Assembly: GCF_006517175.1 (NCBI RefSeq)
Contig: NZ_CP041186.1
Span: forward strand, 2,817,001 to 2,881,000
Origin: Persicimonas caeni
GTDB lineage: Bacteria > Myxococcota_A > Bradymonadia > Bradymonadales > Bradymonadaceae
Reading direction: 5' to 3'
Length of the DNA stretch: 64,000 bases
The notes under the pieces are model-generated. The model had not been told where the DNA came from. It was given only the letters and a program-made list of their open reading frames with translations, and did no database searches. Numbering within the stretch: the first letter of the stretch is position 1; each line of letters opens with the position of its first letter. This document shows positions 1,425 to 51,024 of this stretch, in pieces. The position numbers and the translations under genes are program-made.

Positions 1425-1444
1425 ATGAGGGTGTCGCAAATGCC

Positions 1445-1520: not shown

Positions 1521-1639
1521 CGACGGCGACCTTTTGCGACAGCCTCTTCACCCGGTGAATCAGCCTGTGCAGCTAGTGGTGTGACACCGAGATTCGATTC
1601 ACCTTCGCCGGTCTAGCACCACCAGCTTCGGCGCTTACT

Positions 1640-1715: not shown

Positions 1716-1740
1716 TCACTTCGGTGTCACCCCACTAGAA

Positions 1741-2530: not shown

Positions 2531-2741
2531 TCCGAGCCCACCGGCTCAGCCACCCGGGCAGTGAGCCAAAACGAACTTCGACTCACCCGCCCGTTTCAAA
2601 TTTGTGGGGAAACTCGTGGCCACGATACATCCACCCCTCATTACGGTTTTCGGCAAAAATCGAAAATCGTTGCGTACTTTCTTTCAAGATCGGCCCGTGG
2701 TGGGGTGTTTGACGCGAATTTCTCTGATTCGGCCAGCTCGC

Positions 2742-9699: not shown

Positions 9700-9715
9700 G
9701 CCATCGCTCCCAAAC

Positions 9716-10270: not shown

Positions 10271-10341
10271 CGAACGCTCCTCTCTAGAGAGTTGGGTGTG
10301 CGCGAATCGTACGCGACAAGCCTCGTTTCATCAAAGGCGAA

Positions 10342-10431
10342 GGGGGCCTCTTCGAGGAAGAATGCGATCGACGCTAAAGCTCCTCTGCCAGCGCACGCCG
10401 ACGCCGTTCATTCGCCCGAGAAGAGGCCCCC
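10342..10431. repeat. 12-bp perfect inverted repeat in an intergenic region
   Basis: GGGGGCCTCTTC at 10342-10353 pairs exactly with GAAGAGGCCCCC at 10420-10431, spaced by 66 bp. It sits between the divergent genes starting at 10270 (minus) and 10539 (plus), so it may be part of a regulatory structure or a dispersed element. Confidence 0.6.
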
Positions 10432-30056: not shown

Positions 30057-30929
30057 TCAAGCCTCGGCGCCCAACCGCTCGGGTGCACGTCTGTCGACAG
30101 GGTTGGTAAAGAGGTCGCGGCTCCACGCTACCGCCAGAATTGAGAAGATCCACAGGTGGATGAAGGATATCCCCATGAAGATCCAGGTGCCGATGTGGAA
30201 GCCGATAGCGGCAGCGAGCAAGGCGCGCCGGAGCTTTGGTAGGGGGTAGTAGAGCAGAAACAAGAGCTCCAAGCTCAAAGCCCCGTAGGCCATCAACTCA
30301 CAGACCGCGGGGTACTGAGCCAGCCACACCCCGGCGGTCGTCTCTTGGCGCAACAGCGCGATTTGCAGGTTCGTGCCGTCGGCCGCCCACTGCCATCCCG
30401 ACTCCAACAGTTTGGCCAGGCCCGATTGGACGTAGACGAGGACCGTAACCAGCTCCATGAATCGAAACGCCAGGCTGGTCGACTCGGACCAGGACTGCGT
30501 CCACCTCTCGGTGCGAGAAAAGTCGCAGAGGGCCAGCGCTCCGAGAAACCAGACAAAATGAATGCGCGCGTTGACGAAGCCAAACCCGTTCGACCAGGCA
30601 TCCAGCAGCAAGAAGCCCACGAAGAACAACGAGGCGAAGAGCCGATGGCGAACGCGCATCAACGACAGCACGGCGGCGGCGGTCAACGCCAGGTTGACGG
30701 CGACGAGCAGGCCCGAAGGCGGGAAGGCCAGCCCGACGCGCTCGGCCAGACCGGCCGGGCTGTAAAGCCATGCTTCGGTGGCTCGGTAGGGAGACCAGTC
30801 GGTCCCCCAGATCACGCCCAGGGCGTACAGATACAAGACGACATGCGCCATCTCCATGAACTTGTGCGCTTGGACCCCGAAGCAGAATTGGTCCCAGGGA
30901 TTCGAATATGGGGGCTTATCGGCAGACAT
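30057..30929 (-). CDS. HTTM-domain (vitamin K-dependent carboxylase-like) membrane protein
   Basis: A 290-aa integral membrane protein with about seven hydrophobic helices. Features of the HTTM family visible here include the opening MEMAHVVLYLYALGVIWGTD, the mid-helix LVTVLVYVQSGLAKLLESGW, and LLYYPLPKLRRALLAAAIGF followed by HIGTWIFMGISFIHLW. HTTM proteins are related to the gamma-carboxylase fold, but in bacteria their reactions are mostly unknown. It overlaps the 138-aa gene by 14 bp and is the last gene of the microcin C-like operon. A role in export, immunity or final modification is conceivable but not shown. Confidence 0.85.
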   Translation of the reverse strand: MSADKPPYSNPWDQFCFGVQAHKFMEMAHVVLYLYALGVIWGTDWSPYRATEAWLYSPAGLAERVGLAFPPSGLLVAVNLALTAAAVLSLMRVRHRLFASLFFVGFLLLDAWSNGFGFVNARIHFVWFLGALALCDFSRTERWTQSWSESTSLAFRFMELVTVLVYVQSGLAKLLESGWQWAADGTNLQIALLRQETTAGVWLAQYPAVCELMAYGALSLELLFLLYYPLPKLRRALLAAAIGFHIGTWIFMGISFIHLWIFSILAVAWSRDLFTNPVDRRAPERLGAEA

Positions 30930-31332
30930 GGAGCGTTTCTTGGCGGAAGATAGAAGAGGTCATCGCCTTGTCGGCGTCGCGGGTGAAGTGCACGATTTGA
31001 CGGGTCACCTCGACCTGCTCGGTCTGAGTGCCGTCGAGTACGATCCGACAGATGGCCGCCTCGAGCGCCGGGTCGTCGGTGTCGATATAGGCGCGATAAG
31101 ACATCTCGTTGGCCTGAAAGAAAGGGATAGGGATCACCTCACCCGGTGTGTGGGAGCCTCCCTCCTGGTCCAGATACCGAATGCGCTCGAGGTAGACCCC
31201 GTCACTCAGCGTACGAGTGAACATGCGATAGGCGTTGAACGGGTAGTTCGACGCGTCGCTCAAGGTCGCGTAGGCCTGTATGGCCAGAAAGGCCGGCAAC
31301 AAGAGACTGCAAATCTTCCACTGCGATTTCAT
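30916..31332 (-). CDS. Small exported or membrane-anchored protein, partner of the HTTM gene
   Basis: A 138-aa protein. The N-terminus (MKSQWKICSLLLPAFLAIQA) is a signal peptide or anchor. The remainder is soluble, with the pattern NYPFNAYRMFTRTLSDG and ERIRYLDQEGG, and two Cys. Proteins of this type often accompany HTTM genes in pairs, which the 14-bp overlap supports. No enzymatic motif is seen. It lies 27 bp downstream of the nucleoside phosphorylase gene. Confidence 0.75.
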   Translation of the reverse strand: MKSQWKICSLLLPAFLAIQAYATLSDASNYPFNAYRMFTRTLSDGVYLERIRYLDQEGGSHTPGEVIPIPFFQANEMSYRAYIDTDDPALEAAICRIVLDGTQTEQVEVTRQIVHFTRDADKAMTSSIFRQETLHVCR

Positions 31333-31359: not shown

Positions 31360-32118
31360 TCAACTCGAGAAGCTCTCCTCGATGAACTCGAGGATGACGT
31401 CTCGGATGGCCATGTCGGTGTTGGCCTCAAGCTGGCGGCGTTCGTCGGTGTACTCGAAGAAGCTGTCGCCCCGATCCAGATGATCGGAGAGGTTGAGTAT
31501 GGCCACGGCCTGAGAGCCGTAGGCATGCGCGACCGAGAAGGTGGTCGCCGTTTCCATGTCGACGCCGACAAATCCGCGCTCTTGCCACCGACGGATCTTG
31601 GCAAGATCTTCTGTCAACACCGCATCGGTACTGATGACCTTGCCCTGGGCGAATGGCAGCTCTTTGCGGGTGCAAATACGGCGCATCCGCGCGAGCAAGC
31701 CCGGTTCGGCCGCGTAACCATCTGGCGGACACGACACGTAGCTGGGGGCCACACCGTCATGACAGTCGGCGTGGGTGACCAGCAACACGTCTCCGTAGTC
31801 GACGGTGGGCGACAATCCGCCAAAGTAGCCGGTCTGCACGACCAGCTGGGTCCCCATCTGGCACAGCGGGTGGGCGACAAAGGCCGCCATAGGGCTGCCA
31901 AAGACGCCGGCGACCATGACGTCGACGCCGGCGTGGGTGCCCAAAAGCGCGTTCCACTCGGTGTCGCACACCTCACCGGCGAACGCCGAGCGCCACCGCT
32001 CGAGTGCGCCGGCCAAGCCCCACTCCCCGTGAAGGATGAGAACATCGGGAACGTCTGCAGGCTCCAAAGACTTCAGCCGCAGCCAGTCAGCGCGCTGTAG
32101 CTCACCGTAAAGAGTCAT
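31360..32118 (-). CDS. Purine/uridine phosphorylase-family protein (PNP/UDP/MTAN superfamily)
   Basis: A 252-aa protein. The ATG at 32118 overlaps the stop of the methyltransferase gene (ATGA), which fixes the start inside a longer open frame. The family signature is near the C-terminus: GVDMETATTFSVAHAYGSQA and then ILNLSDHL, the Met-Glu ribose-binding pair and Ser-Asp purine site. In known microcin C pathways, removal of methylthioadenosine left by aminocarboxypropyl transfer requires a nucleosidase of this superfamily. This gene's position suggests the same use. The substrate (MTA, SAH or another nucleoside) cannot be read from the sequence. Confidence 0.9.
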   Translation of the reverse strand: MTLYGELQRADWLRLKSLEPADVPDVLILHGEWGLAGALERWRSAFAGEVCDTEWNALLGTHAGVDVMVAGVFGSPMAAFVAHPLCQMGTQLVVQTGYFGGLSPTVDYGDVLLVTHADCHDGVAPSYVSCPPDGYAAEPGLLARMRRICTRKELPFAQGKVISTDAVLTEDLAKIRRWQERGFVGVDMETATTFSVAHAYGSQAVAILNLSDHLDRGDSFFEYTDERRQLEANTDMAIRDVILEFIEESFSS

Positions 32119-33419
32119 GGTTTCTGAAAGATGCACAGGTAGACTGAGGGCCTTTTTTCGCCCAGATCGATCGGGCAGGCCCGGGTGCGAACTAGCTCCT
32201 CGAAACCCGCCCAGTCGTGCTTGGTATAGATGTGGAAATTGCGCTGCCTTTCTCGCTCGACGATCGAGGTGACCAGGTTTTCGACGTCGTCGGTATGTGC
32301 CTCGAGCGACGGCAAGCGCTCGGCCGAGACGAGGTTCAACCCGCGCTGCTCGAAGAGGCGCAACTGCTCGGCCAGGGAGGCCACCCGAATATGAGCGGAG
32401 ATGGATTCTTGGAGTGTACGGACCAGATGAGCGGGCACGTCGCGGTAATCGTACAAGAATTCGACCATATACCCGCCGCGCCGAAGCACGCGCCTCCCCT
32501 CCTCGATGATCCTTTCGGGCTCGGGGGAGTAGCCCAAGGTGGCCGTCAAGACGAAGCCGTCGTAGGAGTTGTCGTCGAAAGGCAGGTCGGTGACATCGAA
32601 CCTCGCGAAGGTGGCCGCCGATTCTTGTTGGCCGGCGAGCAAATTGGCCATCGAAATGAACTCGGCGTCGTTGTCGATGCCGAGAACGTGATCGAAGTTG
32701 CGACCGAGCACCATTGAAGACAGGCCGGTAAAGCACCCCACATCCAAGATCCTCGAGTCCGGCGCCAACCCCAGGTCCAACAGGCGTTGGCTCAGCCGCT
32801 GGACACTGCTGCCGCCTCCGGGGGCGGCGTTCGGATCGCCCAGGTAGGCGAGGAATTCCAAGGGACGCATATCGGACAGTTTCTGCAGTGGCATCCGCCT
32901 GATGGGCCGGCTAAAGAAGGCCATCAGTTGATCGCGCGTCTGCTGCTGCAGCGGCGTTTCTCGCACGATTTGGCGCGCGGGTTTCGGCTCGCCGGCCACG
33001 AAGCGCACCGTGTCGTCGGGCGCCTCGGACAAGTCGCGACACCAGAGCCTGCGCAGCGACAGGGGGCCGAGCGTGGCGGCCATCTGCGATGCCTCCATCG
33101 ACGAATCAGCGGCAAGCAGCAGGGGACGACGGCCGTCGCAGCGCTGGGCGAGGAGTTGGCCAAAGACGGGAGCGTCCATCACCTCCGGCGCCACGGCGAA
33201 GACGCGAGGCTGCGAGTCGTCGGCGCGCGCAGCGCGCGGCAGCTCGGCCGGGTCGGCCACCGCTTCGACGCCATAGTCTGCAGACAGTTGCTCGGTGAGG
33301 CGCGGGGCGTCGAGCCGAGGCGAGCGGTGCTCGCACCGCACGAAGAGCTCGGCGGCCGAGGTGCGTTGGAAGCCTTCGAAGACAGCCTCGGCGAGAGGTC
33401 GTTGGGAGTTCGGGCTCAT
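32115..33419 (-). CDS. SAM-dependent methyltransferase-fold protein with extra N-terminal domain
   Basis: A 434-aa protein. The ATG at 33419 overlaps the upstream stop (TGATG); an ATG at 33440 is possible. Residues 1-200 form a region without recognised family. From about residue 222 a class I SAM-binding fold follows: ILDVGCFTGLSSMVLGRNFD (motif I), VLGIDNDAE, FARFDVTDLPFDDNSYDGFV and a post-III region ILEEGRRVLRRGG. In the microcin C context it is a candidate for a MccD-like group transfer (3-amino-3-carboxypropyl or carboxymethyl) or for a methylation. The domain alone cannot tell these apart. It is tightly packed between the MccF-like and phosphorylase genes. Confidence 0.85.
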   Translation of the reverse strand: MSPNSQRPLAEAVFEGFQRTSAAELFVRCEHRSPRLDAPRLTEQLSADYGVEAVADPAELPRAARADDSQPRVFAVAPEVMDAPVFGQLLAQRCDGRRPLLLAADSSMEASQMAATLGPLSLRRLWCRDLSEAPDDTVRFVAGEPKPARQIVRETPLQQQTRDQLMAFFSRPIRRMPLQKLSDMRPLEFLAYLGDPNAAPGGGSSVQRLSQRLLDLGLAPDSRILDVGCFTGLSSMVLGRNFDHVLGIDNDAEFISMANLLAGQQESAATFARFDVTDLPFDDNSYDGFVLTATLGYSPEPERIIEEGRRVLRRGGYMVEFLYDYRDVPAHLVRTLQESISAHIRVASLAEQLRLFEQRGLNLVSAERLPSLEAHTDDVENLVTSIVERERQRNFHIYTKHDWAGFEELVRTRACPIDLGEKRPSVYLCIFQKP

Positions 33420-34429
33420 CAGGGCCGCTCCTTGTTCCACGGTTCGAGTAAGCGAAAGCGCCCCCCGGCGGCGTCCAACTCAGCCTCGACGCCGATCGGG
33501 AGGGTCAAGAGGGGATCGGTATGCCCAAAGTCCACGTCGTAGAGAACGGGGATGTCGTAGCCGCGCAGCGCGACATCCAAAATGTCGCGAAGACTATCTT
33601 CCCGGGTAAATTCAACCGAATCGGGGAAGCGGCCGATGACCATTCCGTTGACCTGGTCATAGACTCCCATCTGACGCAGTCTGGTGAACAAGCGATCGAT
33701 GGTCTCGGGTGACTCGACCTCGTCTTCTTCCACGAACAAGATCGTCCCCTCGAGATCGGGCCAGTAAGGAGTGCCGCTCAACAACAGCAGGCTGCCCAGG
33801 TTGCCACCGAAGAGCCGCCCGCGGGCGACTCCCGCAGCGTAAGTCTTCCACCCCTGAGAGGGCCGCTCGAGCATCGCCAGGTCCTCGCGCTCGTACCACA
33901 GGTTGGTCGAGACCATTTCGGCGGCCTGAAAGTCCAGCTCGCGGCCCCCCTCGAACAAGACCCGCTCGAACCAGCGCACGGTGTAATCGAAGAGAGTGGG
34001 CTTGGCGAAAGTGATCACCGCCGGGCCGCTGAAGGTCACCAGCCCACAGCGCGCGGTGATGACGTTGAGCAGCGGAGTCAGGTCACTGTACCCGATGATC
34101 GGCTTGGGGTGAGCCGCGAAGAGCTCGAAGTCGAGATACTCGAGGAGTTGATGGGTTTGATGACCGCCCCAAAACGCCATCAGCGCGTCGATGCTCGGGT
34201 CGGTGAGGAAGTCGTGGATCGCCTGGACGCGCGCTTCAATCGTGCCCGCGGTATGTCCGACGGCTCGCCGGCAATTGGGCGCCTCGACGACCTCGAGGCC
34301 CACTTCGGCCAGTCGAGCATATCCTCGCGCGATCACGGCGTCGTCGAGTTCGTCGATCGGCGAGGACGTGGCGATTACACCGAGCCGGCTTCCCTGAGCG
34401 AGTCGCGGCGGACGAATGATTGTCGGCAT
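33419..34429 (-). CDS. mccF-like: S66-family serine carboxypeptidase, MccF-like self-immunity protein
   Basis: A 336-aa protein of the LD-carboxypeptidase/MccF family. The expected triad is visible: Ser115 in IIGYSDLT, Glu234 in FVEEDEVES and His303 in FGHTDP. Spacing and length agree with MccF (E. coli Ser118, Glu243, His311, about 344 aa). MccF hydrolyses the bond between the peptidyl-aspartate and the nucleotide in processed microcin C and protects the producer. Other members recycle murein peptides, but the neighbours here favour immunity. It is in the middle of the operon, 27 bp after the decarboxylase gene. Confidence 0.9.
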   Translation of the reverse strand: MPTIIRPPRLAQGSRLGVIATSSPIDELDDAVIARGYARLAEVGLEVVEAPNCRRAVGHTAGTIEARVQAIHDFLTDPSIDALMAFWGGHQTHQLLEYLDFELFAAHPKPIIGYSDLTPLLNVITARCGLVTFSGPAVITFAKPTLFDYTVRWFERVLFEGGRELDFQAAEMVSTNLWYEREDLAMLERPSQGWKTYAAGVARGRLFGGNLGSLLLLSGTPYWPDLEGTILFVEEDEVESPETIDRLFTRLRQMGVYDQVNGMVIGRFPDSVEFTREDSLRDILDVALRGYDIPVLYDVDFGHTDPLLTLPIGVEAELDAAGGRFRLLEPWNKERP

Positions 34430-34456: not shown

Positions 34457-35641
34457 TCATCGCGATGAAGAAGGCTGCCACTGTTCCTCTGAGACAGTGA
34501 GCACCGGGGGGGCCTGGCGAATCCAGCTGTGCGAGGTCGCCAGATCGTAGGCGCCGACTTCTCCAAAGACGAGGAGCGTGCCCGGCGATAGAGGCACCGG
34601 GGAAGTGAAACCGCGGGCGAGCGAGTCACTTTCGAAGCACTGGGCCCCGAACAGATCATATTCGATCTCCTGGTCGAGCGAACCTGCCAGCTCGGGAGCG
34701 TCGTGGACCACCTCGATGGGATGATGCCAGGTCTCCAGCGACGGGATCAGATTGCGCCCGGCGTCGAGCACCAGCAGCCGACGCCCGTTGCGACGCTTTT
34801 CGTGGCGCACGCGGCTGACGAGATAGCCGTGATCTTCGACGAGGCTTCGCCCCGGCTCGACGACCAGCGTGAAATGATGCGGATCGAGATGCTGGGCTCG
34901 AAACGCCGTCGCGACCGCGTCGGCGAACTCGGCGATCTCCGGAGTCTTTGCCGGGGTCTGGCTCTTGGAGGGGAAGCCCCCGCCTATGTCGAGCCAGATG
35001 TCGCCGTCGTACAGGTCAACGATCTGTCGGAACAGTGAGCCATAGATGGCGATCGTCTCACGATACAATCGGGGACTCGGCTGATTCGAGCCGACGTGAA
35101 AGTGTAGCCCCGATAGGCGCACTTCGGCGTCGTCGAGGAGTTGCAGCGCAGTGGCGACCTCGGAGAGGAGCAACCCGAATCGAGACCAGCGGCCGTTCGG
35201 CCGCCGCGTAGCCAACCGCATCGAGATGCGCGGGCAGCTCGCGAGTTGGTCGCTCAACTCGAGCACCGTCGACAACTCCGGCAGGCTGTCGACTTGAATG
35301 GCCACTCCGGCCTCGAGCGCGCTGCGCAGCTCGTCGGGAGTCTTCAGCGGGCCGTCGAAGTAGATCTTGTCGGGCTGAAAACCATCCTGCAATGCGAGCT
35401 CGAGTTCTCGTCCGGAGACGACCTCGGCGGCGAGCCCCTCTCGGGCAAACAGTCGGGTGATATCCGCCAGGCTGTTGGACTTGTACGAGTAGGCGACCTC
35501 CACCCGGGGAAAGTGAGACGCCCATGCCTGCTGATGCGCACGCAAGCTAGCGCGAATACCGTCGATGTCGACCAGAAAAAAGGGGGTCTTCACCTCGGCC
35601 GCGGTCTGGCGGACAAGTGGCGGGATCGTCGAGCAACTCAT
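34457..35641 (-). CDS. mccE-N-like: PLP-dependent decarboxylase (Orn/DAP-decarboxylase fold III), MccE-N-like
   Basis: A 394-aa protein of the alanine-racemase-fold decarboxylases. The PLP lysine is Lys54 in VAYSYKSNSL. Other signatures are GLHFHVGSN, DIGGGFP (phosphate loop) and VVEPGRSLV. The C-terminal active-site region is FGAQCFESD, with the Cys-Glu-Ser-Asp signature of this family. In E. coli microcin C, the N-terminal half of MccE has this fold and decarboxylates the aminocarboxypropyl group to aminopropyl. Here the decarboxylase stands alone, without the MccE acetyltransferase half. Lysine or ornithine decarboxylation is the alternative. It overlaps the upstream methyltransferase gene by 4 bp. 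Confidence 0.9.
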   Translation of the reverse strand: MSCSTIPPLVRQTAAEVKTPFFLVDIDGIRASLRAHQQAWASHFPRVEVAYSYKSNSLADITRLFAREGLAAEVVSGRELELALQDGFQPDKIYFDGPLKTPDELRSALEAGVAIQVDSLPELSTVLELSDQLASCPRISMRLATRRPNGRWSRFGLLLSEVATALQLLDDAEVRLSGLHFHVGSNQPSPRLYRETIAIYGSLFRQIVDLYDGDIWLDIGGGFPSKSQTPAKTPEIAEFADAVATAFRAQHLDPHHFTLVVEPGRSLVEDHGYLVSRVRHEKRRNGRRLLVLDAGRNLIPSLETWHHPIEVVHDAPELAGSLDQEIEYDLFGAQCFESDSLARGFTSPVPLSPGTLLVFGEVGAYDLATSHSWIRQAPPVLTVSEEQWQPSSSR

Positions 35642-36411
35642 TTGAGCTCCCAGATTTCGAGGGCGAGTCCTTGATACCGTCGATGTTCATTGAGCACGAT
35701 GCGGGTGTCTCGCATGCGGTCGAAACATTGCTGTTGCAGCTCGGGGCGAGCGTCGGCGTAAAAAGACGACTCGTCGAGCATACGGCGAGTGGCGAACACC
35801 ACGGCCGGAATCGAAACCGGCTCGAGGGAGTGCGTTTGGGACTCACACAATTCAAAACGCGAGGTGAAGTACTCGCGCCACCATTGCTCGGTCCAATGGG
35901 CCCGCGGTCGAAAGTCGATGTACTGCTCGACGGTGTCGAGCAACTCGTCAGGCGGCGAAGAGCGGTAAAAGAAGTTCGACACACACAATTTGCCTCCTGG
36001 CTCGAGCACGCGGGCGACCTCGTCGAGGGCGGCTTCGGAGGCGTCGAAGAACGCAAACGTGCCACCTGCCACGACGTGCGTGAACGTCTCGTCGGCCAGC
36101 GGCAGGTCGGTGGCATCGGCGACCTGGAAGTCCAGGCGCAGCTCACCGCGCACTTGTCGGGCCCGTTCGATAGCACTCGAGGACAGATCGATTCCGACCC
36201 CGCTGCAACCGAGGTGATGCGCGATGTACCGCGATGAAAACCCGGTCGAGCAGGCCAAGTCGAGCAGGTGACTGTGCTCGTCGATCGACGCCTTGTCGAT
36301 CCACCAACGCACGGTGTCCTCCCCTCCCGGAGGCGTGTTTTCTTGGCCGAGGAGGGCGACGAAGTCAGGATAGTCGAGCGCCTGAACATCCTTTCTGGAT
36401 TCAAATTTCAT
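35638..36411 (-). CDS. SAM-dependent methyltransferase-fold protein, MccD-like candidate
   Basis: A 257-aa protein. The ATG at 36411 is preferred (MKFESRKDVQALDYPDFVAL); an upstream extension to 36462 lacks support. It has a class I SAM fold: LLDLACSTGFSSRYIAHHLG, GVGIDLSSSAIERARQV, VADATDLPLADETFTHVV and ALDEVARVLEPGGKL. Size and position directly after the MccB-like gene make it the better candidate for the MccD role. MccD transfers a 3-amino-3-carboxypropyl group from SAM onto the nucleotide phosphate. This is inference. The stop overlaps the decarboxylase start by 4 bp. Confidence 0.85.
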   Translation of the reverse strand: MKFESRKDVQALDYPDFVALLGQENTPPGGEDTVRWWIDKASIDEHSHLLDLACSTGFSSRYIAHHLGCSGVGIDLSSSAIERARQVRGELRLDFQVADATDLPLADETFTHVVAGGTFAFFDASEAALDEVARVLEPGGKLCVSNFFYRSSPPDELLDTVEQYIDFRPRAHWTEQWWREYFTSRFELCESQTHSLEPVSIPAVVFATRRMLDESSFYADARPELQQQCFDRMRDTRIVLNEHRRYQGLALEIWELK

Positions 36412-36484
36412 AGGACTGATTTGCTCAAGAGAAAAAAGGAACTGGGAACATCCAAGCCGCACGCTACTCGTGTGGCGAACGCGC

Positions 36485-37483
36485 TCACTGGGCGATGGGG
36501 GAGCGGGTCAGCGACAAATCTCTCAGATCGATGCGCAGCTCCTCGAAGCCCACAAGCAAAGGCAGATGGTCGGCGGCGAGGATGCGGATGGCCGCCTCGC
36601 CCATGAGCCCGCCCATCAGGGTATTGATGGTGGATCCCGAGGAGTTCCAACTGTTGGGCAACTTGATCGCGGCGCTCAAGGCTTGGGCGATGGAGGGGCG
36701 GTCGAGCACCGTCATCAACTGCCGCCAACTGGGAGTATTGAAGCCAGGATCGACATACGGGCCGATGAGGCCGACGCAGCCTTCGTAGCCGCCTCGGATC
36801 AGCGGCGTGTCTGCCACGAGCCCGGGGTGGTCGTACAGCCCCTCACACTCCCCACACACTGCGATGAGATCGGCCTCGGGGAGTTCGACGTCGGCGTCAC
36901 GATCGACGTTGAAGGTATGAGTGTGCAGTTCGAGGGCGGGGAATCGGCGGGCCAACTCCCTGGCCGCGACCTCGACCTTCGGCCGCCCCAGATCTTCGGC
37001 GGTATATAGGATTTGGCGATTCAGGTTCGAAAAGTCAATCGTGTCGTGATCGATAAGATGCATCTTCTCGACGCCCGCCCCCGCCAGGGTCAACGCGCAG
37101 TGACAGCCGATGCCCCCCATGCCGTATACGATAACGGTGCGACTCTTCAGGTCCCGGAGGATCGCGTCGGGTTCGAAGGGCTGTAGGTGAGCATAGTAGG
37201 AGAGTTGGCGGGTGAAGAGTGGCTCTTCCTGGCGGAACTCGTCCAAGCGCGCCGAAAGGCGCACCAGCCACCCACGCTCTTCGAGCACGGGCATCAAGAG
37301 CTCGAAGATAGGAATGTCGAGCAACTCCGCTTCGGTCCTGGTGCCGTCGAGCTTGGCGAGGGCAGCGACCCCGGCTTTGCCGAGATTGGAGATGGTAATC
37401 TTCTTGCGCGTGCCGCGCAGCACGAGCGATCCGTCCTCGTTCGCCGGGCTTACTGTGGGAAGCAGCCAGAGATAATGTGCCAT
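36485..37483 (-). CDS. mccB-like: MccB-like peptide adenylyltransferase (ThiF/E1 fold)
   Basis: A 332-aa protein. Residues 1-90 form an N-terminal peptide-clamp-like region. The ThiF/E1 core then follows: FTRQLSYYAHL, TVIVYGMGGIGCHCALTLAG (ATP loop 121-126), HLIDHDTIDFSNLNRQILY (Asp145, Arg156) and TAEDLGRPKVEVA (Lys169). These segments match E. coli MccB nearly block by block; MccB has YSRNFLHYQ, VVILGCGGIGNH, LIDNDQIENTNLTRQVLF and SEDDVGKNKTEV. MccB attaches AMP to the C-terminal Asn of the precursor. Two differences are visible. The zinc-binding Cys-x-x-Cys pairs of MccB are absent, and the metal-binding Asp of MccB (VVSAD) appears as Glu (AVCGE). The precursor gene lies just upstream. 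Confidence 0.9.
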   Translation of the reverse strand: MAHYLWLLPTVSPANEDGSLVLRGTRKKITISNLGKAGVAALAKLDGTRTEAELLDIPIFELLMPVLEERGWLVRLSARLDEFRQEEPLFTRQLSYYAHLQPFEPDAILRDLKSRTVIVYGMGGIGCHCALTLAGAGVEKMHLIDHDTIDFSNLNRQILYTAEDLGRPKVEVAARELARRFPALELHTHTFNVDRDADVELPEADLIAVCGECEGLYDHPGLVADTPLIRGGYEGCVGLIGPYVDPGFNTPSWRQLMTVLDRPSIAQALSAAIKLPNSWNSSGSTINTLMGGLMGEAAIRILAADHLPLLVGFEELRIDLRDLSLTRSPIAQ

Positions 37484-37511: not shown

Positions 37512-37537
37512 CAAGAGGCGGCCGAAGCCGCCTCTTG
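37512..37537 (-). terminator. UUCG-tetraloop hairpin between precursor and mccB-like gene
   Basis: On the minus strand this reads CAAGAGGCGGC-TTCG-GCCGCCTCTTG, a perfect 11-bp stem closed by a C(UUCG)G tetraloop. It is followed by TTTCCTTTGATC. It lies 22 bp after the precursor stop and 28 bp before the mccB-like start. In E. coli the mccA-mccB junction has a hairpin of the same position and role, making most transcripts stop after mccA. Confidence 0.85.
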
Positions 37538-37559: not shown

Positions 37560-37853
37560 CTAGTTTCGCACCACGATGGCGGCCGAAACCATGTCATCGA
37601 CGACGATGTCGAAGGCAGTCGGCGTAATGCCGGTCGTACCCTCGAGCTCTTCGACCATGGCCGGGTCGATGAGGATCTTGTAGGTCCCCTGCTCGGTGAC
37701 CTCCAACGTGATTCCAGCCGCGTCGATTGTCGACTCTTCGTCGACCTCGCACATGATCGGCTCTTCGGCGAAAGCCGAGCCGGGCACGGCCGAGATAGCT
37801 GCGCCGAGGGCGAGAGCTTTGCCAATATTACCCAACGTCTTTTTCTTCGACAT
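37560..37853 (-). CDS. mccA-like: Microcin C-like precursor peptide ending in Asn
   Basis: A 97-aa peptide. The ATG at 37853 has a perfect AAGGAG site 6 bases upstream (37859-37864), as expected for strong expression. The N-terminus MSKKKTLGNIGKALALGAAI with SAVPGSAFAEE looks like a Sec-type leader with an Ala-x-Ala site near residue 29. The rest is acidic, with one Cys (PIMCEVDE), and ends AAIVVRN. A C-terminal Asn is the residue that MccB enzymes adenylylate; known precursors are 7-60 residues and end in Asn. The length and the signal-like leader are unusual. Without the neighbours it would be called a hypothetical exported peptide. Confidence 0.8.
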   Translation of the reverse strand: MSKKKTLGNIGKALALGAAISAVPGSAFAEEPIMCEVDEESTIDAAGITLEVTEQGTYKILIDPAMVEELEGTTGITPTAFDIVVDDMVSAAIVVRN

Positions 37854-42159: not shown

Positions 42160-44046
42160 CTAATTTGGAAGCTCCCTGCCGTCTTCACCCACAGAACGAG
42201 CCAAGACCTCCTCGAGCAAATTGGCGATCGGTCTGAGCTTCTCCGGTTCATTCGCTAAGAGCCACTCAGTCATTAACGGCGAATGCAAGGTCTTTCGCAA
42301 TTCCAAGGTGCTTTCACTGACGAAGTCGAACACGTGGTCGATAACCTCGGCTGCGTGAACGCTCTCCAACAGCCAAGTCTCATTATGCTCCCACTCTTGT
42401 GAGCTAGCATCAGGGCAGTGCTCGCGGTAGCGTCGATCCAATTCATTTTTGAGCTCGGTTTCAACGGTCTCTAATTCGACTGAGACATCGTTGGCGTACG
42501 GATCTTGCTCGATGGCATATTTGATCGCCTCGGGCACGAGCAAAAAGTTCTCGTACATCCGAGCGTCCAAGAAGCGAATCCGCTCGACATCTGCGCCGAC
42601 CTTACTCCCCTTGCGCTTCAAGTCCTCGACCTTCCGGCTCGACTTGTCCTCAAGATCGAACACATAGGCGGCCGCCGTCGGCAACAAACTGTGACTGGAA
42701 CTCAGATTTTCGTAGATGTCGAACGTATTCTCGGCGTCCTTCCCGTCGAAGTCCCCGGTGTGCTTGACCGCCCGAATCGCGGTACCGGCGAGCTTGACGT
42801 CCGTAAGCGCCTCTAGAATCATCGGGAAGCACTCCTGCTCGGTCTCGCCTTCGACCCACACGATGCGGTCGACGCCGAACACATCCGACAGCCTCGAACC
42901 CAGGGCCATTAACGCCTTGGTGATCTGGTCGCGCTGGTCCGGCTCGATGGTCCGCAGTTCGCTGACGCCATTGTCGATCTCGGTCAGAATGATCGAGGAA
43001 GACCGCGCGCTGCTCACGATCAGCGGCGAGTGCGTCGAGACTACGAATTGATGCTGGTCTCCATACTCGGCGATGATCTCCATCAGCGCGCGGGCGGCGG
43101 TGGGGTGCAGAAAGCTGTTGGGCTCATCGATGAGAATGGTGCGCGGGAAGCGCGATGTCACCAAGATGTACAGAATACACAGAACCTGGGCGACGCCGCT
43201 GCCGCATTCATCGAGGGCGAAGGTGAGATCGCGGCGGCCGTCGAACTTCCAGATTTCAATTCGAACCCGACCGCCGTCTCGAGCTGCTGTCACCTCTCGA
43301 ATGGAGGGAAAAACACGCCTGACGAGCTCATTGTAGTGCTTGACCCTCCGATAACCTTCGCTCTGAAGGTCCTGCACACATGCTGCGAGATTTGCGCCGT
43401 TCGGTTGAAGTTCGGTCGATACATTGACATCGCAAACGCCCTTTACATCGCGCACCGAATCGAAGCGATAGACTCGGCCGAGATGTTGCATTCCGAGCCG
43501 AAAAGCGAAGTGGTGCTTGCTAGCTACACTTGACCTGTCGTGCAGACTGATTTCGGACTTGTCTCTGTCATAGCTGTAACGCGCCATCGCCGCTTTGGAA
43601 TTCGCTTCCAGCATCAAGGCAAGTCCGAACGGCACCTGGGGCTCCGTGCGAAGAAATCGCTGAATACCACTGCGGCCCTCGAAACAAAACTTGATGCGTT
43701 CTTGCTCATGTATCCACCTCCAGAAGTGAAGGACCGGGTTGTCCTCGTCGCCACGCTGCTGGTGGACCCAAAATGGCTGGTTGGATAGATGTTGCCGAAG
43801 CTCTTCTTGACGGCACGAGATGACAAACTCAAAACTACTTGGTTTAGACGGTTTATCGCCGTGGGAAGGCACACTTCGTAGACTTCGGTGAGGCATGTTC
43901 GAAGCGCTCACCTGCATCGCCTCCAAGAAGGCAGTCTTCCCGGCGTTATTCTTCCCGACAAGTAGGTTCACGCCCAACGAAAGCGGAATGCTCTCGGTCT
44001 CCCAATAGCTCTTGTAGCTGCGAATCTTGAACTCACTGAAATACAT
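42160..44046 (-). CDS. OLD-family ATPase/TOPRIM nuclease 1
   Basis: A 628-aa protein. Residues 1-370 form a SMC/ABC-type ATPase: Walker A GKNNAGKT (31-38), Walker B ILIDEPNSFLHP, and the switch region FVVSTHSPLIVSS. From about 390 a TOPRIM domain follows (IVWVEGETEQECFPMI with the metal-binding Glu, then VFDLEDKSS), completing the overcoming-lysogenization-defect (OLD) architecture. OLD proteins are ATP-regulated DNA nucleases, often in phage defence (for example GajA). It starts 36 bp after the second OLD gene, so the two are cotranscribed. A broken copy of both lies at 29508-29955. Confidence 0.9.
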   Translation of the reverse strand: MYFSEFKIRSYKSYWETESIPLSLGVNLLVGKNNAGKTAFLEAMQVSASNMPHRSLRSVPSHGDKPSKPSSFEFVISCRQEELRQHLSNQPFWVHQQRGDEDNPVLHFWRWIHEQERIKFCFEGRSGIQRFLRTEPQVPFGLALMLEANSKAAMARYSYDRDKSEISLHDRSSVASKHHFAFRLGMQHLGRVYRFDSVRDVKGVCDVNVSTELQPNGANLAACVQDLQSEGYRRVKHYNELVRRVFPSIREVTAARDGGRVRIEIWKFDGRRDLTFALDECGSGVAQVLCILYILVTSRFPRTILIDEPNSFLHPTAARALMEIIAEYGDQHQFVVSTHSPLIVSSARSSSIILTEIDNGVSELRTIEPDQRDQITKALMALGSRLSDVFGVDRIVWVEGETEQECFPMILEALTDVKLAGTAIRAVKHTGDFDGKDAENTFDIYENLSSSHSLLPTAAAYVFDLEDKSSRKVEDLKRKGSKVGADVERIRFLDARMYENFLLVPEAIKYAIEQDPYANDVSVELETVETELKNELDRRYREHCPDASSQEWEHNETWLLESVHAAEVIDHVFDFVSESTLELRKTLHSPLMTEWLLANEPEKLRPIANLLEEVLARSVGEDGRELPN

Positions 44047-44082
44047 CCATCACTCCCACCAAAGCCGGCCAGCCTTCATCAC

Positions 44083-45798
44083 TCAATTCCACTCCCGAAT
44101 CTTCTCACACACTTCCTCCAACCGCTCGGCCAAATCGGCGGTCTCCTCGAGCATCGCTTTGGTGAAGTGCTTCTTGACCGCGTTGGCGTGACCGACCTTA
44201 TCGAAGGTCTTGCGCCCCCGCGCCGCATTGATCTGCTCCGGATACGAATCGAACGGGCCGACCGGCTCGAAACCTTCGTCATCCAGCAGCGCGCGCGTTG
44301 CCTCGACCGGGATATAGTTCTCGACCTCGCGGCCGGCCGTCACCCAGCAGTACATCTGGGTGTCATCCATCTCTTCGGCGATGCGCGCCAACCGCGGCTT
44401 GAGTTCGCTACCGGCCTCAGATCGGTCGCTGTCCGCCATCAAAATGGCGTGGCAGTTGACCCGCAACACCTCGACCAGGTCGTCGACCGAGGCCCCCAAC
44501 TCCTCGGCCGTGTAGTGCGCCAACAACGACCCACCATAAAAGACACATTGATAATGACTCCCCTCACGAAGCTCGCCGTCGGTCCACAGCTCGACCCACC
44601 TGTTGAAGTACAGCCGGTCCGACGGCCCTTCCAACCACACGATGCAATTCGACTGCAGCAGGTCGCTGGCGCGCACCGCCAGGTCGTCCAAGATGGCCCG
44701 CTGCTGGGCATACGTGCTCACCTGGTGCACCGTCGCCTGGCCATCCTCGCGCTGAACGTGCAGGATCTGCGCGTCATCGTCCTGACTGAACATGTCGATG
44801 ACCACGTTGGAATGCGTCGTCAAAAAGAAGTGGCTGCCGTGCTCGTCGGCGAAGTTGCGCAGGTAGCGGAACAGACGGCGCTGCAGCGCCGGGTGGAGGT
44901 TGTTTTCGAGTTCTTCGAAGCCGAAGAAGTACTTGTCGGGCTCTTTTGGGTTTTTGCTGTGAGGGACGAGGTACAGGAAAGTCAAAACGAGCAAAACCGT
45001 CTTCAAGCCACTGCCCGAATCCGACAGGCGAACCAGGGGTTTGCCGTCTTCCTCGAGGAAGACTTCCCAGGTTTCGTTCTTGTCGTGCTTGGTCATGATG
45101 CGCGTGAAATACGCATCGCTCTCGAAGATCTCGTTGAGCCCGTCGAGCATCGACTCCTCGACCAAGTCGTGCGGTAGCTCTGCACTCGTCAGGTAGTTGC
45201 GAATGAGGTTGGTCGCACCGCGCCCGTTAGGGTCGACATCGAGCTCGCCCGAAGCGGGCTCAGGACGAACGTCCCGCTCGCTGGTGAGTCGCACGAAATG
45301 GTGGCCCATGAATGGATCGAAGAGATACTTCTCGAGATTGGTCCATAACGCACCGGCAGACGGTGGCCCCGGCGCCCCGCAGCCTCCATGAAATGCAGTG
45401 TAGGACCCGACCGATCGCAGTGTTCGCTCACGAGCAACCAGACCGCTAGAATCGCGTTCTTGTGGAGTCCACTGCGCTTCTTCACCACAAAAGCGCATCC
45501 CGAAGTCGAAGGTAGTTCCATAATCGTCCTCCGGGAGTTCACGCATCGGAAATACGGCATTGATATCCTCCACCGTTAGCTTCTTATGCAGCCGCAACTC
45601 CCGCGGAAGCTCGGTGGAGACATCGTGGCCCCAAGCCCCTCCTGCAAGCGCTCGCTCGACCAAGTCGAGCAAGCTTGACTTGCCGGCGCTGTTCTTCCCA
45701 ATGATGACGTTGACCGGATAGATACGTTCGAAGCCCTGCCATTCCTCACCAAAACACTTGTGATTCCGAAACCGGAAGCCATGATTTGCAAAAACCAT
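44083..45798 (-). CDS. OLD-family ATPase/TOPRIM nuclease 2
   Basis: A 571-aa protein of the same architecture as its neighbour but only distantly similar. Walker A is GKNSAGKS (34-41), the Walker B region FFGFEELENNLHP, and the switch HFFLTTHSNVVIDMF. The TOPRIM domain starts at about 388 (IVWLEGPSDRLYF), with the acidic pair in HAILMADSDRSEAGS. The C-terminal helical part contains GREVENYIPVEATRALL. It lies 97 bp downstream of the RT-nitrilase gene on the same strand. It is probably a nuclease that works with OLD 1, since the pair is kept together in both the intact and the relic copy. Confidence 0.9.
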   Translation of the reverse strand: MVFANHGFRFRNHKCFGEEWQGFERIYPVNVIIGKNSAGKSSLLDLVERALAGGAWGHDVSTELPRELRLHKKLTVEDINAVFPMRELPEDDYGTTFDFGMRFCGEEAQWTPQERDSSGLVARERTLRSVGSYTAFHGGCGAPGPPSAGALWTNLEKYLFDPFMGHHFVRLTSERDVRPEPASGELDVDPNGRGATNLIRNYLTSAELPHDLVEESMLDGLNEIFESDAYFTRIMTKHDKNETWEVFLEEDGKPLVRLSDSGSGLKTVLLVLTFLYLVPHSKNPKEPDKYFFGFEELENNLHPALQRRLFRYLRNFADEHGSHFFLTTHSNVVIDMFSQDDDAQILHVQREDGQATVHQVSTYAQQRAILDDLAVRASDLLQSNCIVWLEGPSDRLYFNRWVELWTDGELREGSHYQCVFYGGSLLAHYTAEELGASVDDLVEVLRVNCHAILMADSDRSEAGSELKPRLARIAEEMDDTQMYCWVTAGREVENYIPVEATRALLDDEGFEPVGPFDSYPEQINAARGRKTFDKVGHANAVKKHFTKAMLEETADLAERLEEVCEKIREWN

Positions 45799-45894: not shown

Positions 45895-48800
45895 CTAGTC
45901 ATCACGCTCCCCAAACCCTGGCGGCGGGGATTTGAAGTTGCCACCATCAGGCAGCGTCTCTCCCATCCACTGTCTCTTGCTCCTCTCCACAGCCCACTCC
46001 ACGCCGTTTTGTTGAGCCTCCTTCAACGCCCGCACCGGAAACTCCACGTCAGCGACCACGTGCAGGTTGTTGCCGCGAATTCGCGCGATTTCCTTGCGCT
46101 GCGAGTGCCTCGGAGACCAGGCGAACGACCCGCCGTATGAGCCGTGATTCGTCACGACAACATTGGCGTAGCTTTCGTACGCCCGCACCCAACTTAGCTT
46201 ATCGTAGAGGTCTACATCCTTGTTGAACGCACTGAGAACGAGGTGCAGAACCTCACCACGAAGATTCATCCACGGCGTCGGGTCTAGAAGATCCGCACAG
46301 ATGCCGACAGAAAAGTCACCCCACTTGGGATGAAGAAACCGGTACCATTTGCGACCCGGCAGAACCTCAAAAGAGGTCGTTTTCTTTGAACTCGACTTGA
46401 TCGTCGCATTTAGAGCCTGCGTGAATCCATGCTCCAGATGCGCCGGCGTCGGCTTTCGAATGCGGAACTCTCGAGTGAGCCGATATCCATGTGTTTGCTC
46501 GTGGGTCATCGGAACGATCAACACCGCCTCGTTGACGAGAAAACGCTTGCTAATAGTCGACGTCACGTGCGGCGGTGTCACGCACCTCAACGGGCTCCAA
46601 ACTAAACCTGCGAGAACACTGCGCCCGGTCTGACGAACGATGGAGCGGAGGTAGCCGGTCTCAGTGGTTGGGACGACAAGCTCAGGAAAGACGATTAATC
46701 CCTCGGAGGAACCGGCGAGGGTACTCTTCCCGTCGGCCTCGCGCATCGCAGTGGACCAAATCTGATGGCATACCTCCTGTATTTCGCGCCGTGACAGCGC
46801 TGGGAAGCGACGTCTGAGTGTACTCCAATCCGGGCTGGCGTCGATTTGGCCGATTCTTACTGGCAACTCATCGGCCAACTTCTCCAACGAACCGAGCCTC
46901 AGTTTTTCCGGCAGAATCCGTTTATCAACTGGCGGCGGAGGGAACCCACAAATCGACCTTACTTCCTCGAAGTCTTCATTCGCTTCGAGCCGAACGTCGA
47001 CTCTCTCGTATAGGAAATCTCGCGCACCAGCTCGGTCCAAGTCGAGCGCGTCTAACCGGTCGATGAGATTTTGGAGAGGGTCGTTATCCAGCTTGGTCTG
47101 TTGCCTTTTTAGTTCGCCGCCGCCATCTTCTAGCCAACGGAGCAGCGCTTCAACTAAGCGCCATGTCTCGGGCGTGAGATGAACGCGTCTACGCAGCCAC
47201 CAGCGATCCGCAAAGGGGACAACTCCAAAGCCATTGTCAAAGACTCTGTCGAGGAAGCGTTCGGAGCCTTCGACACAGACGAAAAAGTGTAGCGCGTGAA
47301 CCCAGGTTTCATAATTCGCCCAAAACCCATCGCGCCTTGCAGGTTTTTTGAGAACTAACGGCAGAAAGTAGAGCGGGTGTGGCAAGATCTCCCAGTCCTC
47401 GGGGCGACTCGAAGTGGCGATCCAACTCTTCGGACTCACATCTTCGAGAATAGAACGACTTTCTCCGCGCTGGTGTCTGCGCCCCTGAGCAAGGATCTTC
47501 TCAGGCGCATTGTGCAGCCTGTTGTCATTGGACTCATCTTCCGACCGAGCAACCAGCCACGTAGGTGGGTATTCGCTGGCATGAGCCTGTTCTGACTCGT
47601 CGACCGAAGGTGCTGAGATTGCCTCGCGAAACATTGCCAGCGCGATCCGCATGGGAAGCCCAATCGCAGCTGCCTCGGGCAAGTTGAGCCGCCAACCCGT
47701 GAGCGAGTCGTGCGACGTTGCTCTTCCCCACAGTACCCGGTGAACGGTAGGTTTTGTCTCGGAAAACAGACCCGTCTGGTGACCTGGCCGATGCAAGTTT
47801 AGCGAATGAAGCAGAAGCCGAACATCTGCGTAAGTGTGCAGCGCGTGATACGCCTCGAGAGAATGGAACTCTCCGCCAGCACCCTCGAAAATCGACGTAA
47901 GCAGCTGCGTCTGAAACTGAGGCTCCTTGCCCTCCTCACCACCGTCCTCATACCAACTTCGCGCGGCTTCGGCGGGCACGTGGAGCAACCATCCCAAACG
48001 TCTTGCGAGGGCAATCCCCTCTTTCGACTTCCCCAACTCTGCCAGGGCCTCTTGAATCTCGGCAGGGGGAGAGTTGTCTGGTGACGGTACGAGTTTCAAG
48101 AGAACCCACGGGTTGATTTCAGCAGCATCTGCGTCCCGCGCGACTAACCGGCCATCCTGGCGTAGGATTGCCCGCGTCACGCCTTGGTGTTGAAACAATG
48201 CCTCGTGATCGGGAAGACGCAGTTCAGATAGTTCGTCGTGCGCTTTTGCGTGAGCAATTGTCAGGAAAGGATTGCCACTCACAGTAGCGATACAGGAACG
48301 AGCCACCGTCGCGCGGGTTGTCGCCGCAAGCACCGCTTGACATATCGCGGACGCCTCCCACGGCCGGATTCCCCAAGGCGAGTTTACGTCGAAACCTGGG
48401 TACAGGACTTCCGCCCATCGGTCGAAATCACCCAGCCACTCGAGGAGTCGCGGAATTTCCGAACTGGGTACGGCTCGAAACAACCAGGAGCGCGATCTGG
48501 GAGAGGACTTCTCGAGCGGCGACCACGTGGACGGATCGGCCGCTTCGATACGCCGCAATTCCTCATAGCGCAGCGCAGCGATGGCTTGGCCGAGACAACT
48601 CCAGAAGTGGGCGCGAAGAAAGGAAACGACCAAATGGACGCGCTCACCGGTCACAGAATCGTTGCCACATGCCCGTTTTTTTCCGCCGGCATACCAGCGC
48701 GCCGCCCAATCCTCTTGCCAATCTTTTTCATCTTCCTTCGGAGATGGAAGCCGAATATCATTCAGAATTTCGATCAACCACTCCGTTGCGCGCTCGCGCT

Positions 48801-50838
48801 CATCGAGTGCATCATATTCACCGGCCATCGGACGACGTACGGCAGCTCTGATGACCGCCCGCCACAAACTGAACTTCCAAGGACTCTCAAACATCGCCTG
48901 TCGCACGGACCGTCGAATCTCGAGAATCTGCCTAGAATCCTCTTCGACATCTTCCTCCGGGAGCCACGCGCGAACGAGGCGGTTTGCGGCGAAAGCACGC
49001 CGTGTGTCTTCGCGCACTTGCTCGTCGTCGAAGTCAAATCGAATCAGTTCGTGGAGATCAACAAGCCGATCCCGCGCGGGTTGCCCAAAGCGCTCTTCGA
49101 AGCCCTCGCGCGAGAGGTCACTCATCCGTTCGACCAAGTAGGTCACAAACGGCCCTAGCTTCTCCTTGCGCAACACATGCTCGCCGTAGGGATCGTTGAA
49201 CCTGTCAAACGCATCGCTATCGGCGTCTTTGAACCAGTCGCTCAATCCAGGACACGCTTGCGAGGCGTCGTCGGCGCGGACACTAGTCAACTCCCCCTGA
49301 CTAGGCGTATCCTTCAGCTCTGCCGGCTCTTCTTCGGTTATTGCCGCTTCCGGTTTCGGAGCCGGCCCGTCGGCCAGCACCTGTTCGCCGACCAGGTCGG
49401 GGTTTTGCGTGCCTACATAAAACTCTTCACATTCGTCGCATTGCTTCGCCGCCGTACTCCCATCCTCGAGGTACTTATCGATCACCTCCTTAACAGGCTC
49501 CGGCCCGATTTTTGCCCAATTGAGCCGTAGGTTGGAGCATTTGCCATTCGAGCCCGGCTCACCGAGCTTTGATGGCTCTGCTTTCTTGCTCTCAGCGGCA
49601 ATACCCTCCCAGAGCATGTCGATTCCCTCGAGAAGCATTTTACGACTCGGCGCGACCAACAGCATGTCGTCCGCGAATCTCAGAAAGATAGAGCAATCTG
49701 GTTTTGGCTCAGCAACACGTTCATCGAGCCAACTCAAATAGTGCCAATCGAGCGGCGTCAGGTAGACGTTAAGAAGGAAGTTCGAAAGTGCCAAACCGGT
49801 GGGTAGCCCCGGATGGTTCGAACCATCCTGTATCGGCAGCTCATGGGTAATATGTGGAGGCTTCCAGCAATCGTCCCAAATCGACAGTGGCGTCTTCGGG
49901 TCCGGTGTGCGGTAACGGATCTTCTGCAGAAGGTCGCAAAGTGTATCCGCAAGGCGCTGACATGTAGCGCGCGTTTCAAGCCTTGACCGAATGTCGGCTG
50001 GATAACCCGTCATAGTTTCGCTCGTGGCCTCCGATATATCGCGAACACCAAAATCGCGATGTTCGAGATTCGTGAGACTATTTGGCGAAATTACTGGTTC
50101 ATCGCACAGCACCGACCTAAACCGATTGCGGAGCTCTTCAATACAGACCGTTGGAAAAGCAAGGCGAAGGTCCAGACTCGTCCAGTACGCCTTCTTTGAG
50201 CCACCTTGGCCGTAACGCCCCCACCACTTTTCACGAACAAAGGGAGGGAGCTTCTCGTACGGGTAGTCGTCTGGCGTAAGCGCATCACCGGTTGCGCCAC
50301 TTTGACTGATCTTCGCCGAGACTTTTGCAGCCGTGCTCCAATGGGCAACTCGCCGATAAAGCCCAAATGCTCGGGCATACGGCTGGTACAGCCGACTATC
50401 CGATAAAGAGAACCCCCGATCTTTCCACTTTGGTTCTGCCTCGCGATTGTCCCGGAAGATTCCGCGGAACCAGCGATTGCCGAAGGAGAAGTTCGGCATG
50501 ACCGCCTCCATCACCGGTGCCAGCAACACTCCAAACACGATGAAAGCCACCTGGTCCTTTGTCCTAGGTGCTGTGTAATGCCGAAGCATTCCTCCTTTTT
50601 TTGGATATGGGACCAGTGGAAACAGCGACGGTTCGTAGGTCCCGGTTGCTAGCTCTTTGCCGAGTTCCTCGAGTCGCGACTCCGGAGCGAGTTGCCACTC
50701 GATGAAGTCGGCTTCATTGCGGATCTCGCCGAAACGATACCAACTCTGAAGCTTCCGCCATGCAGCATGCAGCACGAGCGGGTGTGAGAGCAGATAGGAT
50801 ACGTCGTCCGAAGATTCGTCTGAACCTTGCTTACTCAT
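45895..50838 (-). CDS. drt1-like: Reverse transcriptase-nitrilase fusion (DRT type 1-like defence protein)
   Basis: A 1647-aa protein read from the ATG at 50838. The N-terminal 450 residues are a reverse transcriptase of the unknown-group (UG) class. Motif A is YWTSLDLRLAFPTV (Asp223), motif B-like is GLPTGLALSNFLLNVYL, and motif C is FLRFADDMLLV (Asp390, Asp391). A Cys pair CDECEEFYVG follows. The C-terminal part is a nitrilase domain with the full triad: Glu1386 in LIVFPEL, Lys1462 in RIRKPTPAHL and Cys1514 in VGICADLL. RT-nitrilase fusions define DRT type 1 anti-phage systems. Between the domains lie about 850 residues of unknown fold. The frame is open for 55 more codons upstream, including a hydrophobic stretch, but without a good start. 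No separate small membrane partner is evident. Confidence 0.9.
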   Translation of the reverse strand: MSKQGSDESSDDVSYLLSHPLVLHAAWRKLQSWYRFGEIRNEADFIEWQLAPESRLEELGKELATGTYEPSLFPLVPYPKKGGMLRHYTAPRTKDQVAFIVFGVLLAPVMEAVMPNFSFGNRWFRGIFRDNREAEPKWKDRGFSLSDSRLYQPYARAFGLYRRVAHWSTAAKVSAKISQSGATGDALTPDDYPYEKLPPFVREKWWGRYGQGGSKKAYWTSLDLRLAFPTVCIEELRNRFRSVLCDEPVISPNSLTNLEHRDFGVRDISEATSETMTGYPADIRSRLETRATCQRLADTLCDLLQKIRYRTPDPKTPLSIWDDCWKPPHITHELPIQDGSNHPGLPTGLALSNFLLNVYLTPLDWHYLSWLDERVAEPKPDCSIFLRFADDMLLVAPSRKMLLEGIDMLWEGIAAESKKAEPSKLGEPGSNGKCSNLRLNWAKIGPEPVKEVIDKYLEDGSTAAKQCDECEEFYVGTQNPDLVGEQVLADGPAPKPEAAITEEEPAELKDTPSQGELTSVRADDASQACPGLSDWFKDADSDAFDRFNDPYGEHVLRKEKLGPFVTYLVERMSDLSREGFEERFGQPARDRLVDLHELIRFDFDDEQVREDTRRAFAANRLVRAWLPEEDVEEDSRQILEIRRSVRQAMFESPWKFSLWRAVIRAAVRRPMAGEYDALDERERATEWLIEILNDIRLPSPKEDEKDWQEDWAARWYAGGKKRACGNDSVTGERVHLVVSFLRAHFWSCLGQAIAALRYEELRRIEAADPSTWSPLEKSSPRSRSWLFRAVPSSEIPRLLEWLGDFDRWAEVLYPGFDVNSPWGIRPWEASAICQAVLAATTRATVARSCIATVSGNPFLTIAHAKAHDELSELRLPDHEALFQHQGVTRAILRQDGRLVARDADAAEINPWVLLKLVPSPDNSPPAEIQEALAELGKSKEGIALARRLGWLLHVPAEAARSWYEDGGEEGKEPQFQTQLLTSIFEGAGGEFHSLEAYHALHTYADVRLLLHSLNLHRPGHQTGLFSETKPTVHRVLWGRATSHDSLTGWRLNLPEAAAIGLPMRIALAMFREAISAPSVDESEQAHASEYPPTWLVARSEDESNDNRLHNAPEKILAQGRRHQRGESRSILEDVSPKSWIATSSRPEDWEILPHPLYFLPLVLKKPARRDGFWANYETWVHALHFFVCVEGSERFLDRVFDNGFGVVPFADRWWLRRRVHLTPETWRLVEALLRWLEDGGGELKRQQTKLDNDPLQNLIDRLDALDLDRAGARDFLYERVDVRLEANEDFEEVRSICGFPPPPVDKRILPEKLRLGSLEKLADELPVRIGQIDASPDWSTLRRRFPALSRREIQEVCHQIWSTAMREADGKSTLAGSSEGLIVFPELVVPTTETGYLRSIVRQTGRSVLAGLVWSPLRCVTPPHVTSTISKRFLVNEAVLIVPMTHEQTHGYRLTREFRIRKPTPAHLEHGFTQALNATIKSSSKKTTSFEVLPGRKWYRFLHPKWGDFSVGICADLLDPTPWMNLRGEVLHLVLSAFNKDVDLYDKLSWVRAYESYANVVVTNHGSYGGSFAWSPRHSQRKEIARIRGNNLHVVADVEFPVRALKEAQQNGVEWAVERSKRQWMGETLPDGGNFKSPPPGFGERDD

Positions 50839-51024
50839 CGTTTGACTCACACAAACTTTAGTCAATCCAATCAACCATTGCACCAACACAACAACTGCGT
50901 TGATCTTCAACATTTGTATGTCGGAACCGCTACGCGTGAGTCTCTGGGGCCCCGGCAGCCATACTTGCAATCTTAGTACTTCAAGCCGCCAAGCTGGCGG
51001 CACATCATCGACGGCTCTCCTACC

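Follow-up and report, generated by a model that had tools for sequence, protein, structure and literature searches.

Within the window, the whole 64,000-nucleotide stretch of Persicimonas caeni DNA analysed here, a reading frame of 97 residues heads an operon of nine genes and occupies the position of mccA, ahead of a MccB-type gene. The genes 3' of it all lie on the reverse strand and are separated by intergenic gaps of -22 to 76 bases. From the 5' end of the operon, the features of the locus are as follows:

37560-37853, reverse strand: mccA-like precursor, 97 residues, with a leader (residues 1-29), an acidic region and a C-terminal Asn
37512-37537, reverse strand: terminator-like hairpin of 11 pairs with a TTCG loop and a T-rich tail, separating the precursor gene from mccB
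36485-37483, reverse strand: MccB-like E1/ThiF adenylyltransferase, 332 residues, with MccB chains as best PDB relatives
35638-36462, reverse strand: MccD, SAM-dependent 3-amino-3-carboxypropyl transferase, 274 residues (E. coli MccD: 41% identity, 209 bits)
34457-35641, reverse strand: free-standing MccE N-terminal-type PLP decarboxylase, 394 residues (PF02784; E. coli MccE: 34%, 199 bits)
33419-34429, reverse strand: MccF, S66 serine carboxypeptidase, self-immunity, 336 residues (E. coli MccF: 33%, 155 bits)
32115-33440, reverse strand: two-domain methyltransferase, 441 residues, whose C-terminal part, a class I methyltransferase, is a distant relative of MccD
31360-32118, reverse strand: PNP_UDP_1-family nucleoside phosphorylase/nucleosidase, 252 residues, assigned by family profile
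30916-31332, reverse strand: 138-residue protein with one N-terminal hydrophobic stretch, whose homologues adjoin HTTM proteins in Bradyrhizobium and Pantoea
30057-30929, reverse strand: HTTM-type membrane protein, 290 residues, probably a distant relative of SdpB

A microcin C-type set of enzymes

The identities of MccD, the MccE-type decarboxylase and MccF come from direct comparison with the annotated E. coli mcc plasmid; the decarboxylase lacks the acetyltransferase domain, and the PDB matches of MccF are MccF and MccF-like chains. The MccB-like enzyme aligns with E. coli MccB at an hhalign probability of 99.5%, and MccB chains are its top PDB matches both with the single sequence and with a four-sequence profile (118.6 bits for MccB, 93.9 for MoeB), while Arg156 and Lys169 are invariant in its alignment. 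The N-terminal RRE/peptide clamp of MccB was not detected by sequence, the hhalign match covering residues 91-323 only, and the single-sequence model of the enzyme is of low confidence (pLDDT 40). A candidate substitution of a Mg ligand was dropped because two alignments placed the residue differently.

Two further genes may extend the pathway. The two-domain methyltransferase, whose N-terminal ~185 residues matched no Pfam or NCBIfam family, could provide an additional tailoring step. The PNP_UDP_1 protein is nearer by profile to DeoD-type phosphorylases than to methylthioadenosine nucleosidases; its gene nevertheless fits the pathway because methylthioadenosine is a by-product of MccD, and its removal by a nucleosidase enhances MccD (PMC10491745). 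We propose, with the substrate deduced from this context, that the protein clears methylthioadenosine in the cluster.

With MccB, MccD, the MccE decarboxylase domain and MccF all represented, the cluster is very probably of the microcin C type, as predicted from its genes. The product of such clusters is a peptide-nucleotide that inhibits aspartyl-tRNA synthetase; the genes for aminopropylation (MccD/MccE) and for immunity (MccF) occur in only a subset of them, and a dedicated exporter is usual in those described, though it is not what defines the chemistry. No MccC-like exporter (MFS or ABC) was found when the operon proteins and the flanking proteins were scanned, none of which matched a transporter family.

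The cluster stands isolated among its relatives: no further genome of the phylum sample (379 genomes) yielded a MccD, and no other genome of the class sample (57 genomes) has a MccB above E 1e-25, so the host probably acquired it. Scanning genome contigs with the MccB profile brought up mostly generic ThiF/MoeB-like proteins, with no close relative among them, the same scan of viral contigs returned no relatives, and a tblastn search of plasmids with the precursor returned no additional ones. Two genomes, G377 and G305, have MccB-like genes (33% and 35%, respectively); in the former, only a doubtful ORF of 10 or 31 residues ends in Asn, with no clear SD, and in the latter just 216 bases of contig lie upstream of the gene.

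Other loci came to light during these searches. At 45895-51003 (reverse strand) the window encodes a 1702-residue protein that matches PADLOC reverse transcriptase-nitrilase (DRT) models, adjoined at 42160-45798 (reverse strand) by two OLD/GajA-like AAA ATPases; together they are likely a defence island next to the antibiotic cluster. On the Peribacillus plasmid NZ_CP068052 (2691-9311), a MccD-like methyltransferase is encoded together with an S66 peptidase, a protein resembling asparagine synthetase A and two alanyl-tRNA ligase-like proteins; the locus may specify a non-ribosomal aminoacyl-nucleotide antibiotic.

The precursor and its relative in Bradyrhizobium

The precursor gene, preceded by TAAGGAGACAAT-ATG, encodes MSKKKTLGNIGKALALGAAISAVPGSAFAEEPIMCEVDEESTIDAAGITLEVTEQGTYKILIDPAMVEELEGTTGITPTAFDIVVDDMVSAAIVVRN. 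Close inspection of this ORF confirms each trait listed in the preliminary description: a strong SD (AAGGAG, 5-10 bases ahead of the ATG), a positive start (an N-region of +4), a hydrophobic stretch, an Ala-x-Ala-like site (AFA/EE), an acidic tail (the 68 residues C-terminal of AFA have a net charge of -14) and a terminal Asn. The GC content at its three codon positions (0.57/0.42/0.79) resembles that of the cluster's enzyme genes, unlike that of the overlapping ORFs. The hairpin that follows the gene has a z of -3.83, and in E. coli mcc a terminator likewise lies between mccA and mccB (PMC6495379). Known MccA peptides are of 7-8 or 17-56 residues (PMC6495379), the longer class agreeing with the limit of about 60 residues previously given; at 97 residues, the precursor exceeds every described MccA in length.

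This length, together with the lack of any family match in Pfam and NCBIfam profile scans, would also suit an unrelated secreted protein, with the true MccA elsewhere or missed. The structure predicted for the precursor without an alignment is of low confidence (pLDDT 45). Against an unrelated protein stands the finding that, among ORFs of 6-130 residues between 29,400 and 38,600, the precursor is the sole one to combine an SD match with a terminal Asn, and it does so at the mccA position; the same search recovers MRTGNAN, the known MccA, from the E. coli mcc plasmid. A plasmid of Bradyrhizobium moreover shows the same layout, and we consider an unrelated protein highly improbable.

That plasmid, Bradyrhizobium japonicum p1S06B, encodes the plasmid-borne protein nearest to the MccB-like enzyme (35% identity). 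Directly before its mccB lies a 101-residue ORF with the SD GGAGG, which has a hydrophobic, signal-like leader and an AxA site (AQA) and ends in GSMIN. A methyltransferase, related to MccD only distantly, and a GNAT protein follow mccB, while the genes for an HTTM protein of 30% identity and for its partner are in divergent orientation. Annotation and Pfam revealed no exporter within 12 kb, a stretch that includes several hypothetical proteins assigned to no family. Over their last 40 residues the two long precursors align better than shuffled sequences (14/5000), whereas in an unanchored alignment the similarity of the cores is not significant (p ~0.08); of the terminal residues, IVVRN and GSMIN, only the final Asn is kept. 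In known MccA peptides, too, conservation is confined to the last residue. The preliminary description had proposed comparing homologues next to MccB-like genes, and the one independent homologue available, beside a MccB of 35% identity, has both the terminal Asn and a signal-like leader and so does not refute that reading.

The same residue bears on the chemistry. ThiF-like RiPP enzymes are varied in what they make (PMC12250964), and the enzyme here could in principle yield another C-terminal product (a thiolactone, imide, amide or succinimide) in place of a nucleotide conjugate; yet the C-terminal Asn at two loci, together with MccD, the MccE-type decarboxylase and MccF, all three known to act on the nucleotide conjugate, makes such a product highly improbable.

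A shorter precursor is found in Pantoea ananatis: pOC5aB carries a 31-residue ORF that ends in Asn and has no signal leader, together with an MFS protein that is a distant relative of MccC. In this Pantoea ananatis locus (NZ_CP059085, 4664-9804) the ORF, which is unannotated (7624-7719, reverse strand), is followed by MFS, AAA ATPase and ThiF genes, with DUF393, the partner and HTTM genes divergent; this is likely a McC-type cluster.

Leader, export route and the HTTM pair

To describe the leader we used a simple, home-made signal rule (a positive N-region, an uncharged hydrophobic stretch and an AxA site preceded by P or G), calibrated on 35 E. coli K-12 proteins, of which it passes 3/4 Sec-secreted, 0/2 lipoproteins, 0/21 cytosolic and 2/8 inner-membrane proteins. 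Both long precursors (97 residues in Persicimonas, 101 in Bradyrhizobium) pass, as do 64 of 20,000 shuffles of the Persicimonas N-terminus, whereas the 31-residue Pantoea precursor and the 36- and 46-residue MccA of Hyalangium, both of which come with exporters, fail. In this small sample a signal-like leader thus coincides with the absence of a pump at two loci, and leaderless forms have pumps. The form of the leader and the lack of a recognisable pump at two loci point to Sec, and export of the precursor by this route appears likely; modified peptides are exported by Sec in the case of bufferins (PMC12452194). The earlier suggestion of Sec export instead of a MccC pump is partly supported: the microcin C-type pathway and the signal-like leader are borne out, a MccC-like gene was found at neither locus, and the Sec route itself is a deduction from the leader and the missing pump. 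The open-access literature searched contained no MccA with a Sec signal, which is not proof that none has been described.

An HTTM protein and a small partner, a pair that the preliminary description did not mention, lie near both long precursors. In the plasmid collection the pair occurs in two records only, Bradyrhizobium p1S06B and Pantoea pOC5aB, and a ThiF enzyme adjoins it in both. Its occurrence is not limited to Sec-type precursors, because the Pantoea cluster combines it with an MFS exporter and a leaderless 31-residue precursor, and similar pairs also occur in unrelated contexts. The HTTM protein appears distantly related to a true SdpB (hhalign E 6e-5), and five residues are invariant across eight proteins; TIGR04033 and the SdpA family PF17418 have no match in the Persicimonas genome. 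The 138-residue protein was rejected as a relative of SdpA, the profile of the partner giving an hhalign probability of 0.2% with a SdpA-like protein. In Bacillus subtilis, processing of SdpC after secretion requires SdpA and SdpB (PMC6818787), and a role for the HTTM pair in the present system is speculative.

Two loci in other genomes are of note for this family. In G368 (8748-10381) a distant relative of the 138-residue partner precedes an HTTM protein with no ThiF gene, so the pair belongs to a wider module. G007, of the same phylum, has a canonical-looking sdpC-sdpA-sdpB operon (1399-3742) whose SdpB exceeds the family cut-off.

Since the signal rule also passes 2/8 inner-membrane proteins and is unable to tell signal peptides from anchors, the leader may instead be a membrane anchor, or a processing leader, for the HTTM pair or another protease, with the product of a microcin C-type cluster exported by an unlinked pump. 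The post-secretion processing of SdpC and the presence of the pair beside the leaderless Pantoea precursor are consistent with this arrangement. Both long precursors, however, have helix-breaking residues and an AxA motif at signal-peptidase distance, neither of which a plain anchor needs, and a pump was found at neither locus; we regard the anchor or processing leader as unlikely, if worth keeping in view.

Proposed pathway and comparison with known systems

The sequence supports the gene set, the terminal Asn, the form of the leader and the lack of a recognisable pump nearby. From these we infer, at a probability of roughly 0.6, that the locus makes a microcin C-type precursor that receives its modification at the C-terminal Asn, leaves by Sec and is then trimmed. 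In this organism, the MccB-like enzyme would join a nucleotide, probably AMP, to Asn97; MccD and the free decarboxylase would put an aminopropyl group on the phosphate, the nucleosidase-family protein would remove methylthioadenosine, and MccF would shield the producer. Because the target residue is added last in translation, synthesis of the precursor would be completed in the cytoplasm, and export would follow both translation and modification. The leader would act as a Sec signal peptide, cleaved after SAFA, and for this reason no MccC pump would be required. Binding of the leader by the MccB-type enzyme could delay export, an idea similar to one proposed for bufferins (PMC12452194). The 68-residue pro-protein would later be trimmed to a short C-terminal peptide-nucleotide, a step suggested by analogy with the long MccA of Yersinia, in which 42 residues are trimmed to 11 after modification (PMC6495379), and the trimmed form would enter prey or competitors. 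Trimming within the envelope could, speculatively, involve the HTTM pair. A more elaborate version, which we find doubtful, is a hybrid toxin in which microcin C chemistry is applied to a Sec-exported pro-protein, the SdpB-like HTTM pair matures it in the envelope, the leader doubles as MccB recognition element and Sec signal, and only nucleotide-tagged protein is released.

The closest known system, E. coli mccABCDEF (McC7/C51), shares MccB, MccD, the MccE decarboxylase domain, MccF, the terminal Asn and the hairpin between mccA and mccB. Its precursor, however, is MRTGNAN, whereas that of Persicimonas has 97 residues and a signal-like leader; it possesses the MFS pump MccC and a GNAT domain on MccE, of which the former was not found and the latter is lacking here. 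The two-domain methyltransferase, the nucleosidase-family gene, the 138-residue protein and the HTTM protein are additions in Persicimonas. Long, Asn-ended precursors also occur in Yersinia pseudotuberculosis (42 residues) and Hyalangium minutum (36 and 46 residues); those of Hyalangium do not pass the signal rule, and an ABC/C39/HlyD-type exporter is encoded in their cluster, whereas none was found in that of Persicimonas. As the 2019 survey screened clusters for a transport-related gene, pumpless ones may be under-counted.

Bacillus subtilis sdpABC resembles the Persicimonas locus in combining a secreted, signal-bearing precursor whose active part is towards the C-terminus (traits predicted in Persicimonas) with a small protein and an HTTM/SdpB-type protein, but it involves no nucleotide chemistry, the 138-residue partner has no detectable homology to SdpA, and the HTTM protein is only distantly linked to SdpB. 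Modification in the cytoplasm on a precursor that bears a Sec signal peptide (both predicted in Persicimonas) is shared with bufferins and other MNIO-modified RiPPs; they differ in their oxidative enzymes, internal Cys motifs and metal binding, with neither a nucleotide nor a ThiF enzyme. If the proposed pathway is correct, nucleotide conjugates would be added to the small set of RiPPs with known Sec export, MccB enzymes would act naturally on protein-sized substrates, and the question would become one of timing, namely how export waits until the last residue has been modified.
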